Notes under the pieces: generated by a model
Told to the model about the DNA's origin: nothing
What the model saw: the letters and a program-made list of their open reading frames with translations, nothing else
The model's database searches: none
Shown: positions 1,323 to 39,120 of the stretch, piece after piece
How positions within the stretch are numbered: the stretch's first letter is position 1
Layout: the number at the start of each line of letters is the position of its first letter
IMG/VR virus record: IMGVR_UViG_3300023181_000050
Span: 1 to 40,040 of that record
Length of the DNA: 40,040 bases
Direction: 5' to 3' (one strand)
Origin: a virus
Position numbers and translations under genes: made by a program

Positions 1323-1573
1323 TGGCAAGAGCGAAGGTGTACTCGCAAACCATGCGCCTGAAAGAGAACGGGCGTATGAAAACGTTCCGCTACTGGTGCT
1401 TCACCGTCCACGGATGGAACGGAACAGTCCTGTCTGATAACGGGTACGGGTCGCAGCAAGCGGCACTCGCAGATGCTGACAAGTTAGCTCGAGCCGTGGG
1501 AATGATCGAAAACCGCGGCCACAAGCTGCCCACATGGCGTGACGTAGTTGACGCCGCATCACGGAGAAGCTGA
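1322..1573 (+). CDS. Small hypothetical protein
   Basis: An 83-residue protein with a basic N terminus, then an aromatic beta-rich stretch (YWCFTVHGWNG) and an alternating NGYGSQQAALADADKLARAV helix. The layout, strands followed by a helix, recalls DUF1508-type small phage and host proteins, but the resemblance is weak. It starts and ends in one-base overlaps with its neighbours, which supports translation as part of the early operon between WhiB and the replication initiator. No function is assigned. Confidence 0.7.
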   Translation: MARAKVYSQTMRLKENGRMKTFRYWCFTVHGWNGTVLSDNGYGSQQAALADADKLARAVGMIENRGHKLPTWRDVVDAASRRS

Positions 1574-2283
1574 TGCCGTGGTTCAAAGTAGACGACGGGT
1601 TTTGGTCCCACCCCAAGGTGATCGAACTTTCACCAGCCTCCGTTGCGCTCTGGGTTCGTGCTGGCAGTTACAGCGCACAGCACCTCACAGACGGCTTCGT
1701 TAGCCGTTCAGTGGTCAGGATATTGGGCCATGCATCAGGCGATGCTGACTCGCTTGTGGAGGCCGGTTTATGGGATGGCAAACCTGATGGCAAACCTGCC
1801 GGGTATCAGTTCCACGACTGGGGAAACTACCAACCTCCGTCGATCGCGTCGAAGGAGAAAAGGGACGAATTATCCCGGAAACGTGCGGAATCTGGGCGCA
1901 AAGGGGCCGAAGCAAGATGGTCGCAAGATGCATTGCAAACCGATGGCAACAGTGATGGCAAGTTGCCATCGACCTCGGATGGCAACGCGATAGCCCCGTC
2001 CCGTCCCGTCCCGTCCCGTCCCGAAGCTTCTAAAGAAGCTTCTTCTTCCGGCAAGAAACCAGAAACTCGGATGCCCGACGATTGGGCCCCGACCGTGGCG
2101 CACTTCACCAGAGCTCGAGATAACAACATCGACATTGCTAAGGAGGTCGAGTCGTTCAAGCTGTTCTCCGAAACACACGACAGGCACGCAGCCAACTGGA
2201 ATGCAGCGTTCACCACATGGCTGATCAAGGCGAAACCGTCTGATCCCGTCAAACGCAATCCCGACGCGTGGATGAACCCATGA
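1573..2283 (+). CDS. Replication initiator-like protein with N-terminal winged helix
   Basis: A 236-residue protein. Residues 1-90 (MPWFKVDDGFWSHPKV..., then LVEAGLWD) match the N-terminal helix-turn-helix domain seen in actinophage replication-initiation or replisome-organiser proteins. Residues 95-120 are basic. A low-complexity linker follows (DGK/DGN repeats, then PSRPVPSRPE), and a compact C-terminal helical domain (about 165-225) resembles DnaD/DnaT-like or lambda O/P-type tails. It lies directly before a DnaB-N/RepA-type ATPase, the usual initiator-loader arrangement. The linker DNA holds six copies of an 8-mer, a CCCGT tract and a hairpin (annotated separately), so the gene may contain the phage origin, as lambda O does. 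The family call is moderately sure; initiation function is inferred. Confidence 0.75.
   Translation: MPWFKVDDGFWSHPKVIELSPASVALWVRAGSYSAQHLTDGFVSRSVVRILGHASGDADSLVEAGLWDGKPDGKPAGYQFHDWGNYQPPSIASKEKRDELSRKRAESGRKGAEARWSQDALQTDGNSDGKLPSTSDGNAIAPSRPVPSRPEASKEASSSGKKPETRMPDDWAPTVAHFTRARDNNIDIAKEVESFKLFSETHDRHAANWNAAFTTWLIKAKPSDPVKRNPDAWMNP
1774..1985 (+). repeat. Iteron-like GATGGCAA cluster inside the initiator gene (candidate origin)
   Basis: The octamer GATGGCAA occurs at 1774-1781, 1786-1793, 1942-1949, 1954-1961 and 1978-1985 on the + strand, and at 1963-1970 as its complement TTGCCATC. The first and second copies, and the third and fourth, are each exactly 12 bases apart. The first pair extends to a 12-base direct repeat. 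An octamer is expected about once in this window by chance, so six within 212 bases is clear enrichment. Direct iterons inside an initiator gene are the organisation of lambdoid origins; use as an origin here is inferred. The repeats also encode DGK/DGN peptides. Confidence 0.55.
1995..2023 (+). repeat. Pentanucleotide CCCGT tandem repeat
   Basis: Five full CCCGT units followed by CCCG, in the linker of the initiator gene. The period of five is not a multiple of three, so gain or loss of one unit would shift the frame; the present number keeps the protein open. It directly abuts an inverted repeat. Confidence 0.85.
2023..2042. repeat. Inverted repeat next to the CCCGT tract
   Basis: GAAGCTTCT (2023-2031) and AGAAGCTTC (2034-2042) form perfect 9-base arms around two A residues. 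An A-rich stretch follows. With the iterons upstream it completes an origin-like layout of iterons, GC tract, palindrome and A-rich segment. Confidence 0.7.
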
Positions 2284-3473
2284 CCGGCTCACCTGCGGAA
2301 CGGGCCGTGCTCGGTTCGATCCTCATGGATTCGAAGGTGTACCGGTTCGCGGCTGAGGTGGTGTCCGCGGATGACTTCGAGGATCAACGGTTGGGTGCGA
2401 TCTTCGCCGGCATGGGGAGGTTGCTCAGCACGGGCGCACCGGTCACAGCAGTCACGGTGGGTAACCATTTCCCGGAGTGGCAGATTCGCGGCATTGATCC
2501 GACTGAGGTGTGGACGTGGACGGATGATGTCCCGTACGCGCAGGCGGTCACCGAGTTTGGTGTAGCGGTCAGGGATGCGGCTATCCGTCGCGGGCTTCGG
2601 TCTGTTGGTCAGTCGATTATGGCGAACGCAACCAATCCGGGGTTTGCGTCCCCGGATGCTGTGTCGTCTGCGATCACCGAACTTGAGAGGTTGCGGTCGT
2701 CGGCTGCAACGTCAATGTTTGTGGCCCGGAAGTTGGCGGACATTCTTGACGGTTCTGATGAGTACGACTGGATCATTCCGGACCTGCTCGAGCGGAAAGA
2801 CCGTCTGATTCTGACCGGTGGTGAGGGTGCCGGTAAGACAACGTTCGTCCGACAGTTGGCGATCCTGGCGGCTGCTGGTATTCACCCGACGACGTTTCAG
2901 AAGATCAAACCGGTTCGCGTGTTGGTGGTTGATGCCGAGAACACGGAACGGCAGTGGCGTCGTGCAGTCCGGGTGATGGTCCGTGACGCCGCACAGCAAG
3001 GATCAGTCGACCCGGCACAGACCGTGCACGTCATGGCCTCACACCGGATCGACATCACCAAAGAGCAACACCTGGGTGAGATCCACCGACTCGTGGACCT
3101 GCACAAACCGGATGTGTTGTTCATCGGGCCGCTGTACAAGCTCGTGCCGAAAGCGATCAACAACGACGACGACGCAGCCCCGCTCATTGTTGCCCTCGAT
3201 TCCCTCCGTGAACGTGACATTGCCCTGGTGATGGAAGCACACGCCGGCAAGGGAACCGGTGGTGATGGTGAACGCGACCTGCGTCCTCGTGGTTCGTCAG
3301 CCCTTCTCGGATGGCCCGAGTTCGGCATGGGGTTGCGGGTGACCGACGACCCTTCAGGAAATCAGGTGCAACTGATGCGGTGGCGTGGCGACCGCGACGT
3401 GCGCGACTTCCCGAAGTTCATGAGACGCGGTCATTTGTGGCCATGGATGCCAGAAAGCGAGTACGGACAATGA
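2280..3473 (+). CDS. DnaB-N/RepA-type replicative ATPase (helicase-like)
   Basis: A 397-residue protein. Residues 5-60 (ERAVLGSILMDSKVY, then a helical block) match the DnaB N-terminal domain. Residues 150-345 form a RecA-fold ATPase with Walker A GGEGAGKT at 180-187, VLVVDAEN at 214-221 and a Walker B-like KPDVLFIGP at 276-284, as in RepA/AAA_25 ATPases. It is shorter than DnaB (about 450), so it is either a primary phage helicase or a helicase-like loader. Start 2280 gives an ATGA overlap with the initiator; 2268 is also open. Codon usage changes around base 2950, from G/T-rich third positions to C/A-rich, suggesting a recombination joint inside the gene. Confidence 0.8.
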   Translation: MTGSPAERAVLGSILMDSKVYRFAAEVVSADDFEDQRLGAIFAGMGRLLSTGAPVTAVTVGNHFPEWQIRGIDPTEVWTWTDDVPYAQAVTEFGVAVRDAAIRRGLRSVGQSIMANATNPGFASPDAVSSAITELERLRSSAATSMFVARKLADILDGSDEYDWIIPDLLERKDRLILTGGEGAGKTTFVRQLAILAAAGIHPTTFQKIKPVRVLVVDAENTERQWRRAVRVMVRDAAQQGSVDPAQTVHVMASHRIDITKEQHLGEIHRLVDLHKPDVLFIGPLYKLVPKAINNDDDAAPLIVALDSLRERDIALVMEAHAGKGTGGDGERDLRPRGSSALLGWPEFGMGLRVTDDPSGNQVQLMRWRGDRDVRDFPKFMRRGHLWPWMPESEYGQ

Positions 3474-8278: not shown

Positions 8279-8908
8279 ATGAGCAACCGTACCTGCAACG
8301 TAGACAAGTGCAACAAGCCCGGCACGGCGCTCGGCATGTGCAACCTGCACTACCAGCGCTACATCAACGGACGCCCCCTTGTTCAGGAGGCCAAGCCCGT
8401 ATACGCCTACTGCACCGTAGACGGATGCACCCTGCCAACAAGATCGAAGCACGCCTCGATGTGCATGAAGCACTATCACCGCCAGTACCGCCACGGCAAT
8501 GCTGACGCGGTAGCTACTCGCTCGAACATCAGCGTTAGCCACGGTCGGAGATACAAGACCAAGTACAACCCGAGACACCCACTCGCATCCAAACATGGCA
8601 TCGTCTACGTACATCGCATGGTGCTGTTCGACGCCATCGGCTACGGTCCACACCCATGCCATTGGTGCAAGACGCCAGTCAACTGGGGCCCCAAGGGTTC
8701 GCCCGATGAACTGCAACCCGATCACCTCAACGGATACGGCGACGACAACGAGATAGACAACCTGGTTCCCTCGTGTCGTTCATGCAACATCGCACGCGCA
8801 GGACAGGCGCGCTCCGCCGCTCTGCGCCAGGCCGGCTGGTGGTCTGAGCACGACACCATCGCCGCACTTCGAACCCAGTCGCGAAAGAGCAAAGTTGAAG
8901 ACAACTGA
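8279..8908 (+). CDS. HNH endonuclease with N-terminal Cys/His repeats
   Basis: A 209-residue protein. Residues 6-75 contain two copies of a C-x4-C-x9-C-x2-HY module (CNVDKC..CNLHYQR, CTVDGC..CMKHYHR), a zinc-binding DNA-targeting unit found in phage HNH proteins. The HNH core is at 127-170: CHWC, QPDHLNGYGDDN with the catalytic His149, N161 and CRSC at 166-169. GAGGAG precedes the ATG. Its own conserved leader marks it as a free-standing homing-type cassette. It is also the last gene before the inferred cos region, so a packaging role is the alternative. Confidence 0.85.
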   Translation: MSNRTCNVDKCNKPGTALGMCNLHYQRYINGRPLVQEAKPVYAYCTVDGCTLPTRSKHASMCMKHYHRQYRHGNADAVATRSNISVSHGRRYKTKYNPRHPLASKHGIVYVHRMVLFDAIGYGPHPCHWCKTPVNWGPKGSPDELQPDHLNGYGDDNEIDNLVPSCRSCNIARAGQARSAALRQAGWWSEHDTIAALRTQSRKSKVEDN

Positions 8909-29253: not shown

Positions 29254-30717
29254 ATGGCCGTCTACAATTTCCCCTCCAACGCACCACTCACACCATCCGG
29301 CACTAACACTGATGTCGGACAGGCGAACCCGCTCTACCTCGGCACGGTCATGCACGCCACCACCACGGGCGTCACCGCAACGGGTGTCCGGTTCTGGGTG
29401 CCCGCAGCAGGTGTGGGCGAAACGATAATCGGGTGCCTGTTCGATGGGGCAACCGGCAGCACGATCCTGGCATCCTCGAGCGGTGTCACAGCAGTGTCCG
29501 GTTGGAACAGTCTCACCTTCACCACCCCCTACTTGCTCACGTCCGGCACTGACGTCGTTGCCACCATCGGAATCACCCCACTGTCCGGGAGTGTCAGCTA
29601 CCCCGCCGTCGCGTCCGTACTCGCCAGTGCCGTAACCGTCACACCCCTGCAAACCCTCGCAACCGGTGGACGATACAGCTACAACGCCGCAACGCCCACC
29701 ATCACCGGGGGCGCACCATCCGGGACATCCACGGCCTGGTACGGCGTGGACATCATCGCCTCCGACGCTGGCGGGCCTGTCACCGGAACTCTCGCCGCGA
29801 AGACACCAACCATCACTGCGGCAATCACCGGCGCAACGAAGAACAACGGGACGCTCACAAGCAAAGTCCCCGTCCTCAAAACGACTTTCACAGGTGCGGC
29901 GAAGAACGCTGGGACTGTCAGCGCGAAGACCCCACTGGTCACCGCATCGATCACCAGCACCGCCACCGCAGTCACCGGGACGATCGCTGCAGCGCTCCCC
30001 GTTGCCACCGCATCACTCGCGGGTGCATCGACCAACGCCGGAACTGTGGCCGCGAGTGCACCAGTAGTCACGAGTTCTGTTGCGGGGATGTCGGTCAACC
30101 CTGGCACACTCACCGGAACGATGCCCACCGAGACGGTTGCGATAACTGCGGCGTCCACCAACAGCGGAACAGTCACCGGAAAAACCCCGACCGTTACCGC
30201 AAGCATCCTCGACACCAGCTCGATCACCGGCAACCTCAACGCCACACTGCCGACCACTCGTGCCACGCTCACGGGCACCCAGAAGAACACGGGCACACTC
30301 GCCGGTAAAACGCCCACAGCGACCGCAGCAATGGCTGGCACCAGTGTGGTCGCTGGAACTCTCGCAGCCACCACACGACCCCTCACAGCGTCTATCGCGG
30401 GCACGATAGCCAACAGCGGCTCACTCACCTCGAGCCTGACGCCACTGACCGCCAGCATTCTCGGAACCGCGTACACACTCGGGATGCTCGCGGCACGACT
30501 GCCACTCATCACCTTCACCGGGGCAGGGACCAGTGGCGTCCTCCGCGACATCAGCCTCACAGCAACACCACTCGCAGACCGGTTCACAGCCACGCCACTA
30601 GCCGACCGGTACGAAACCACAGAACTCGAACCACGGCTACAAGCAACCGAGCTCGCCACTAGATGGACAGCCACACCACTGCCCGACCGATACACCGCCA
30701 CCCCGGAGGAAAACTGA
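29254..30717 (+). CDS. Repeat-built tail fibre/minor tail protein
   Basis: A 487-residue protein. Residues 1-175 form an N-terminal beta-sandwich (VMHATTTGVTATGVRFWVP, SGWNSLTFTTPYLLTSGTDV) like the DUF4082/carbohydrate-type domains. Residues 178-430 consist of about twelve 21-residue units with the pattern GTLAAKTPTITAAITGATKN. The last 55 residues repeat TATPLADR(F/Y) with a period of nine. The body would form a long beta-structured rod. GGAGGGGAA precedes ATG 29254. A role in surface binding is inferred. Unit number may vary by recombination. Confidence 0.75.
   Translation: MAVYNFPSNAPLTPSGTNTDVGQANPLYLGTVMHATTTGVTATGVRFWVPAAGVGETIIGCLFDGATGSTILASSSGVTAVSGWNSLTFTTPYLLTSGTDVVATIGITPLSGSVSYPAVASVLASAVTVTPLQTLATGGRYSYNAATPTITGGAPSGTSTAWYGVDIIASDAGGPVTGTLAAKTPTITAAITGATKNNGTLTSKVPVLKTTFTGAAKNAGTVSAKTPLVTASITSTATAVTGTIAAALPVATASLAGASTNAGTVAASAPVVTSSVAGMSVNPGTLTGTMPTETVAITAASTNSGTVTGKTPTVTASILDTSSITGNLNATLPTTRATLTGTQKNTGTLAGKTPTATAAMAGTSVVAGTLAATTRPLTASIAGTIANSGSLTSSLTPLTASILGTAYTLGMLAARLPLITFTGAGTSGVLRDISLTATPLADRFTATPLADRYETTELEPRLQATELATRWTATPLPDRYTATPEEN
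29785..30540 (+). repeat. Twelve degenerate 63-base coding repeats
   Basis: Units of 21 codons begin with G(T/N/S/M)(L/V/I) and carry TP or LP at position 7-9 and a TAS(I/L) core, for example GTVTGKTPTVTASILDTSS. Units differ in sequence, so the array is old or under diversifying pressure rather than freshly duplicated. Confidence 0.8.
30545..30714 (+). repeat. Nine-residue TATPLADR(F/Y) repeats at the fibre end
   Basis: Five units: TATPLADRF, TATPLADRY, ETTELEPRL, QATELATRW, TATPLPDRY, then TATPEEN. The Arg at position 8 and an aromatic or Leu at position 9 are constant. Short acidic-basic repeats of this kind at the end of a fibre could be a trimerisation or attachment tail. Confidence 0.75.
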
Positions 30718-38342: not shown

Positions 38343-38608
38343 TGCTGACCGAAGAAAACGAACCGGCGAACCCGATAATCGCCCGAGCGCGGGAGCGAGG
38401 ATGGAACTCGCCCGTTCATGCAGCCCGCTTGTTGCGCTGCATCGACGACAAGAACCCGAGGATGTCGGGGCACATCGAGGTGGACTGGAATGACTTCGTA
38501 GCCGCAACCCCCGAGCAGATCGAACACGCCCGTCACGCCCTAACGCGCATTGCCGATTCGGGGCTAGCGCTCCCTTCGGGTGACCACTACACCCATCGGG
38601 GTTCCTGA
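38342..38608 (+). CDS. Small hypothetical protein (88 aa)
   Basis: MLTEENEPANPIIARARERG..., 88 residues, with WNDFVAATPEQIEHARHALT in a helical second half. The stop overlaps the next ATG (TGATG). No family is recognised. Confidence 0.58.
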   Translation: MLTEENEPANPIIARARERGWNSPVHAARLLRCIDDKNPRMSGHIEVDWNDFVAATPEQIEHARHALTRIADSGLALPSGDHYTHRGS

Positions 38609-39120
38609 TGCTTGTTGGTTTCAAGGCAGATAACCACCCGCAGCAGACGGCCAAGCGCGGCGCACTCGATGAGGTGGACGATCGCGCTACTCACCCTGAC
38701 GACTTCGGCCGGTGGAATGCCGAGCTCGGTCCGTTCACCCTCGACGTCGCAGCAGCGCCGCACAACACGAAATGTGAAAGGTTCTTCACCCGTGCAGACA
38801 ACGGCCTCGAAATGTCGTGGGCTGGAGAGAAGGTCTGGTGCAACCCGCCATACAGCGGGCTGGGTGACTGGCTGGCAAAAGCGTGGGCCGAATATGCGAC
38901 CACTCGCGGCATCGTCATGCTGCTGCCCGCGAACCGGGTGGAACAGAAGTGGTGGCAGGAACACGTCGAACCATTCCGCGACCGACCCGACTCGCCACTG
39001 ACGGTGCGGTTCCTTCCCGGTCGACTCCGCTTCATCAAAGCCGGAGCAACCGAAATCAAACCCAACGAACGACCACCATTCGGCTGCGCACTACTCATCT
39101 GGTCGGACCCCACCAGATGA
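38608..39120 (+). CDS. Phage N6-adenine methyltransferase (Dam type)
   Basis: A 170-residue protein with the compact layout of phage DNA N-6-adenine-methyltransferases: FTLDVAAAPHNTKCERFFT at 43-61, then VWCNPPYSGLGDWLAKAW with NPPY at 79-82, MLLPANRV and the C-terminal RLRFIKAGA..PFGCALLIW. Such enzymes methylate adenine in short sites, often GATC, and may protect phage DNA. It is a different family from the methylase at 202-1104. It overlaps its neighbours on both sides. Confidence 0.88.
   Translation: MLVGFKADNHPQQTAKRGALDEVDDRATHPDDFGRWNAELGPFTLDVAAAPHNTKCERFFTRADNGLEMSWAGEKVWCNPPYSGLGDWLAKAWAEYATTRGIVMLLPANRVEQKWWQEHVEPFRDRPDSPLTVRFLPGRLRFIKAGATEIKPNERPPFGCALLIWSDPTR

Follow-up and report, generated by a model that had tools for sequence, protein, structure and literature searches.

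What are clustered octamers, a pentanucleotide tract and a palindrome doing inside the gene for a putative replication initiation protein, and could they together make up an origin? The window (the whole stretch of DNA analysed) is a 40,040-nt virus record; profile matches identify genes for integrase, terminase, head, tape-measure and tail proteins, indicating a temperate siphophage-like genome. Two DNA methyltransferase-like genes are present, one at 205–1104 (phrog_3820), just upstream of the replication genes, and one at 38608–39120 (phrog_111). There is also a 27-nt direct repeat in two copies (30557–30620) near the end of an ORF at 29254–30717, about 1 kb before the integrase gene. GC skew across the window gives no clear origin signal. 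The features considered here are:

1573–2283, plus strand: initiator gene (236 amino acids), phrog_2447, "replication initiation protein"
Initiator residues about 1–86 and 90–123: predicted winged-helix-like N-domain and long helix (AlphaFold model)
Initiator residues about 124–160 and about 165–220: predicted disordered linker and DnaT-like C-terminal helical domain
1774–1793, plus strand: iteron copies 1 and 2, GATGGCAA, at 12-nt spacing, inside the N-domain coding region
1942–1961, plus strand: iteron copies 3 and 4, GATGGCAA, at 12-nt spacing
1963–1970, minus strand: iteron copy 5, inverted, facing copy 4 with one base between
1978–1985, plus strand: iteron copy 6
1994–2022, minus strand: G-quadruplex motif, six G runs with 2-nt spacers; the top strand reads CCCCGTCCCGTCCCGTCCCGTCCCGTCCC
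2023–2042, no strand assigned: hairpin GAAGCTTC-TAAA-GAAGCTTC, abutting the tract; the loop is TTTA on the bottom strand
2023–2065, no strand assigned: A/T-rich stretch, candidate melting region
2280–3473, plus strand: helicase gene; DnaB N-terminal (PF00772, 2e-11), AAA_25 (PF13481, 2e-21), phrog_19 (4e-19)

The first-pass annotation described an initiator-like gene followed by a DnaB-N/RepA-type ATPase, and both identifications hold: the ORF at 1573–2283 matches phrog_2447 over residues 1–174 (E = 1.8e-38), covering the N-domain and linker, and the downstream gene, whose start overlaps the initiator gene end (2280 vs. 2283), has both DnaB N-terminal and AAA_25 domains. The AlphaFold model of the initiator has a mean pLDDT of 82, with low-confidence stretches at residues 129–140 and 153–158. 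Its match to DnaT (PF17948) is weak, under the Pfam cut-off. No lambda O-family match was found in Pfam, PHROGs or NCBIfam, and no convincing sequence relative in the PDB; a fold search returned weak winged-helix-type matches only (all E > 0.05), and no close relative.

The repeats themselves are as first described: six copies of GATGGCAA in 212 bp, five direct (1774, 1786, 1942, 1954, 1978) and one inverted (1963), with two pairs at 12-base spacing (1774/1786 and 1942/1954). The whole 40 kb contains 10 copies, where 1.5 are expected and the maximum in 100 shuffles was 5. One further copy, at 1321–1328, overlaps with the start codon of the small upstream gene (1322–1573), perhaps by chance or perhaps as an additional binding site. 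The CCCGT ×5.8 array is found at 1995–2023, or 1994–2022 if counted by C runs. Its bottom strand, (GGGAC)n, fits the definition of a G-quadruplex motif (four or more GGG runs, loops 1–7); it is the only four-run C or G motif (loops 1–5 nt) in the 40 kb, and has the highest |G4Hunter| value of any 25-nt window there, 1.88. The palindrome at 2023–2042 can be drawn with the 9-base arms originally proposed and a 2-nt loop, or as an 8-bp stem with a 4-nt loop, and A/T-rich DNA does follow it. All of these elements were said to lie in the linker of the initiator; they are all within the gene, but the octamers at 1774 and 1786 are in the N-terminal domain.

For comparison, homologous loci were gathered from viral contigs, bacterial genomes and named phages by protein similarity, ignoring the tract. 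This yielded 221 loci, 157 of them non-redundant at 85% identity of the N-domain and 156 with enough sequence; the use of protein patterns to find them biases the sample towards WFKVDD-type initiators. The module is found inside the initiator gene in more than 100 related phages and prophages of actinobacteria.

The most conserved element of this module is the tract. At least four CCC runs are present on the coding strand between +250 and +1000 of the gene in 117 of the 156 relatives, and on the opposite strand in one; 108 tract motifs fall in the +250 to +500 bin, and 0–4 in distant bins. Chains of four (38 loci), five (39), six (26) and seven (11) C runs occur, with three in 19 loci and fewer in 21, and lengths peak at 4–6 at the tract position vs. 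1–2 in a control window. The strict tract is missing in 39 of the 156 (25%), including the 19 loci with three runs; some of these have clear weaker forms and others none. The C runs are mostly exactly three long, and the spacers (GA, GT, GTA, AT, GG, GAA, TT, AGT and others) are 2–3 nt in 477 of 492 cases. Between close relatives the C runs resist change while the spacers vary: rates are 0.041 at C-run sites, 0.122 in spacers and 0.151 at flanking C (P = 2e-5 and 7e-14). The tract and palindrome had originally been listed as side details. They are indeed present, but that ranking does not stand: no other part of the element is as conserved or as unexpected.

The module is not confined to coding sequence. 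In 11 non-redundant loci, mostly with genes shortened to the N-domain, the tract is 3' of the stop codon, and an intergenic gap in Propionibacterium phage Anatole contains AAGCAAA iterons, followed by CCCCGTACCCGTACCCGTACCC and by A/T-rich DNA. In two viral contigs, iterons, (CCCGA)n and a hairpin lie outside the initiator gene, 6.3 kb (G001) and 26.5 kb (G002) away, while the initiator loci of these contigs have no tract motif. The G001 module (G001:12341–12374; intergenic in L092, minus strand near 8420–8370) has the iterons GATGTTCG/GAACAT, as read in L092, and the hairpin GTGAAACCTAACGGTTTCAC; that of G002 (L175, G002:5186–5219) has the hairpin GTGAAAACTAACGTTTTCAC. Tracts past the stop codon in 11 loci and intergenic modules in two phages argue that the module acts as DNA rather than as protein.

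Searches starting from the tract lead back, in part, to the same gene family. In an unbiased scan for (CCCGN)5, viral contigs yielded 117 distinct tracts, of which 53 were at the window's initiator family and on the same strand; distant members of the family sharing the hairpin loop were reached as well (L106, L115). The corresponding scan for (CCCAT)3CCC placed 22 of 79 tracts at the family. Initiators with a different N-domain, DUF1376, can also have a CCCAT tract in the linker (L395:6398–7249, minus strand; L437:1224–2159, minus strand, where the DUF1376 assignment falls under the Pfam cut-off; L364:9315–10211, plus strand). In the first of these, ATGGCAA/ATAGCAA repeats are found just 5' of the tract despite the difference in N-domain family from that of the window. 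Of seven loci found as relatives of the DUF1376 initiator, the six besides the query are without a tract. Among named phages, Appa, Schmidt, Anatole, Guppsters, BritBrat, Jinkies, Fruitloop, TZGordon and Marvin have the tract; the more distant initiators of LOCV5, Shipwreck, Clautastrophe, Nala, Liefie, Jinglebell and Chuckly do not. Two other repeats came to light. In Pseudomonas phage Alize, the "primosomal protein I" gene, which has the same type of C-domain, contains repeats followed by (GGGACA)n (L463:1680–1712), here with the G runs on the coding strand, the reverse of the orientation in the window; this is possibly an independent quadruplex at a Gram-negative phage origin. A CCCATCCCATCCCATCCCATG array, seemingly unrelated to initiators, runs into ATG codons in many metagenomic viral contigs (L357, L370, L379, L380, L392, L402 and others).

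Repeats upstream of the tract are general, though their sequence is not. In the 130 nt 5' of the tract (118 loci), repeated 6-mers are spaced at 11 nt (15 times control), 12 nt (7.6 times), 22–24 nt and 33–36 nt, which would put them on one face of the helix; the lag of 11 is not divisible by three. ATGGCAA, rather than the full octamer GATGGCAA, is the core shared among relatives. Arrays of it are found in nine loci (the window, L001, L003, L011, L201–L203, L250 and L301), in L301 and L250 in all three codon phases, and in L201–L203 at +138 to +198, a similar place to copies 1 and 2 of the window. Other loci use GTTCG, GTGAC, GTAAC or AGCAAA. It had been suggested that the octamer be counted at the same site in related phages: eight other loci do have phased ATGGCAA, but most relatives have other iterons. 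Taken literally, then, most relatives have an intact initiator without clustered octamers, the pattern that the first-pass annotation had set against its own proposal, and GATGGCAA must be rejected as a universal iteron; it is one of several types. Mapped on the N-domain tree, iteron class changes 21 times vs. 37.5 in shuffles (minimum 30), so that the class of site is conserved rather than the octamer. This is as expected if the N-domain reads the iteron.

The hairpin after the tract follows a different pattern. A perfect stem of at least 7 bp within 50 nt 3' of the tract is found in 46% of 118 loci, vs. 0.8% in shuffled sequences and 0–8.5% at control offsets; a good hairpin is thus present in only about half of loci. 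The stems differ in sequence in 52 of 54, indicating that complementarity is kept and sequence is not, around a constant, very small loop, and close relatives can differ in both arms (L054 AGCAGTAGCTACTGACGTAGCTACTGCT vs. L058 AGCAGTAGGTACTGACGTACCTACTGCT, and L044 TCTCCTCC vs. L049 TCTTCTCC, all with matching 3' arms). The closing pair is C-G in 51 of 59 hairpins. Read on the bottom strand, the 59 loops are TTTA (11), GTTA (10), GTCA (9), GTA (7), GAA (5), GGTA (3) and others, with 36 of the GNA/GNNA type and none on the top strand. GNA and GNNA loops closed by G-C pairs form extraordinarily stable DNA mini-hairpins (PMC4686876). The window's own loop (TTTA) is outside this class; its hairpin's position and loop class do recur in relatives. 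With DNA energy parameters the bottom-strand hairpin is the stabler in 30 of 59 and the top-strand one in a single case. Among the stem pairs there are 556 Watson-Crick pairs, 12 other mismatches and no interior G·T, as expected for DNA rather than RNA pairing. The 40 nt 3' of the tract have a mean folding z of -2.3 (controls 0 to -0.5), and A+T in the first 30 nt is 0.58, 0.50 and 0.45 per 10 nt against a background of 0.35, a short A/T-rich region beside lambda's. A second inverted repeat, rich in GC and GCGCAAGCGC-like, is frequent beyond the first hairpin, 30–45 nt after the tract, where the coding sequence for the KRxTR motif of the C-domain begins (L001, L009, L019, L195, L215, L242, L271).

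The three parts, their order, their strand bias, their conservation at the DNA level and their independence from coding can be read directly from these sequences. We consider it about two-thirds probable that the segment at 1774–2065 is the replication origin of a temperate actinophage, located in its initiator gene and made up of iterons, a G3N2 tract able to form a quadruplex, and a hairpin in A/T-rich DNA. Origin activity, protein binding, folding of the quadruplex and hairpin, and helicase loading are what we infer from this arrangement. The winged-helix N-domain would oligomerise on the helically phased iterons, coating them, and the flanking DNA would then melt. The opened bottom strand could fold at the G3N2 tract into a three-layer G-quadruplex, followed by the small hairpin in A/T-rich DNA, whose tiny loop fits stable DNA mini-hairpin types best on that same strand. 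With the bottom strand trapped as quadruplex plus hairpin, the top strand would stay single-stranded, available for binding by the DnaT-like C-domain, and the DnaB-type helicase from the next gene might be loaded onto it.

Other functions for these sequences could be at the protein, RNA or DNA level. The linker is proline-rich (PTRPDP, PSRPVP, PSHPIP, PEPEPE) and predicted to be disordered, and if selection acted on these residues the DNA pattern might simply follow. Recoding the same amino acids synonymously with the codon usage of neighbouring sequence, however, gives the motif in an expected 18 of 147 genes vs. 108 observed; C-run starts use all three codon phases (224/176/158); and the tract lies outside the gene in the short-gene phages and is intergenic in two. 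These non-coding copies contradict selection on the linker, an explanation we reject and to which we attach almost no probability. An RNA hairpin, with or without the C-rich RNA, regulating translation or transcription of the initiator is highly improbable. The hairpin is usually within the coding region, and its loops on the sense strand, UAAC and UGAC, are of the GNRA-like UNAC class, but there is not one G·U among 556 stem pairs, an Rfam search gave no match, the module also occurs intergenically beside iterons, and the sense RNA of the tract is without G runs.

The remaining alternatives keep the origin and change the role of the tract. In a plain lambda-type origin only the iterons and A/T-rich DNA would matter, and the tract would have arisen incidentally, through replication slippage in a disordered linker. 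The iterons of lambda O, at +348 to +432 of that gene, are placed much like those here, and perfect tandem repeats make up about half of the tracts. Mixed spacers in 54 of 118 tracts and the constraint on C runs relative to spacers nevertheless lead us to reject pure slippage as a full account, and the 117-to-1 strand bias and the persistence of tracts in non-coding DNA make this version very unlikely. A less remote idea, though still an unlikely one, is that the tract acts through its C-rich strand or as a repeat, with CCC as primase starts, as the site of a C-strand-binding protein, or as an i-motif, no quadruplex being needed. It is the C runs that are conserved, as would follow from any factor reading CCC, and an i-motif or a repeated CCC site for binding or priming would also be compatible with the tract. 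Against this, priming sites would need neither the soft threshold at four runs nor spacers of 2–3 nt, and it is on the G-rich strand that the hairpin loops match stable DNA loop types (36 of 59 vs. 0).

The quadruplex-and-hairpin origin may represent a widespread and undescribed class, in which iteron binding leaves one strand locked as G-quadruplex plus mini-hairpin and the other free for helicase loading; it would reside inside many actinophage initiator genes, be movable to non-coding DNA, and recur with an initiator having a DUF1376 N-domain. We regard the case for this broader claim as evenly balanced. A literature search for G-quadruplexes at phage origins, with subscription journals partly covered, found nothing on point and no such module described. 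The origins of most actinobacteriophages are unmapped, though this initiator family is annotated in hundreds of genomes; in many of those, the three-part signature would show where the origin lies, and it could guide work on actinobacterial replicons and vectors. If the mechanism is true, it offers a tractable phage model for a much-debated matter, with the G-quadruplex as a positive, conserved part of an origin vs. an obstacle. It is directly testable, since synonymous recoding of the tract would leave the protein unchanged and the stem can be swapped by compensatory changes.

Several known systems share some of these features. The bottom-strand loops GTTA, GTCA, GTA, GAA and GGTA, closed by C-G, resemble the GNA/GNNA mini-hairpins (PMC4686876) in 36 of 59 cases, but the latter are known as oligonucleotide chemistry and the window's loop is TTTA; in the literature searched, they are not described as conserved components of phage origins. 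For the RepA systems of cluster A mycobacteriophages, a 2020 study suspected a lambda-like origin within or just upstream of repA, and the repA-proximal region examined had no repeated motifs (PMC7157519). That is a different RepA system from the window's initiator. Another parallel is the RSF1010-type oriV, which combines iterons, GC-rich and AT-rich segments, and ssi hairpins. The window likewise has iterons next to GC-rich sequence and A/T-rich DNA, together with a stem-loop that might direct single-strand events; it differs in having one hairpin, on one side only, and an origin inside the initiator gene, with no RepB'-type primase identified nearby and no primase seen among the proteins scanned in profile searches.

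The closest comparison is with the lambda origin in gene O, which the first-pass annotation rightly described as having iterons inside the gene. Both have iterons within the initiator gene, at a similar distance from its start and between the DNA-binding and C-terminal parts, with A/T-rich DNA, a short region in this case, after them and a helicase-related gene next. Clustered, helically phased repeats inside the initiator gene, the mark of a lambda-type in-gene origin, are present here as repeats, i.e., as candidate binding sites, and the eight other ATGGCAA loci and the phased repeats in 118 loci lend the proposed lambda-like origin good support. Lambda, however, has 18–19-bp iterons, a long A-rich stretch, an initiator family without homology to this one, and a P-type loader, and has neither a four-run C/G tract (by the same test, run as a control) nor a tract-linked hairpin. 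On the sequence evidence, the locus is best read as a lambda-like in-gene origin of new architecture: iterons, then G-quadruplex, then hairpin.
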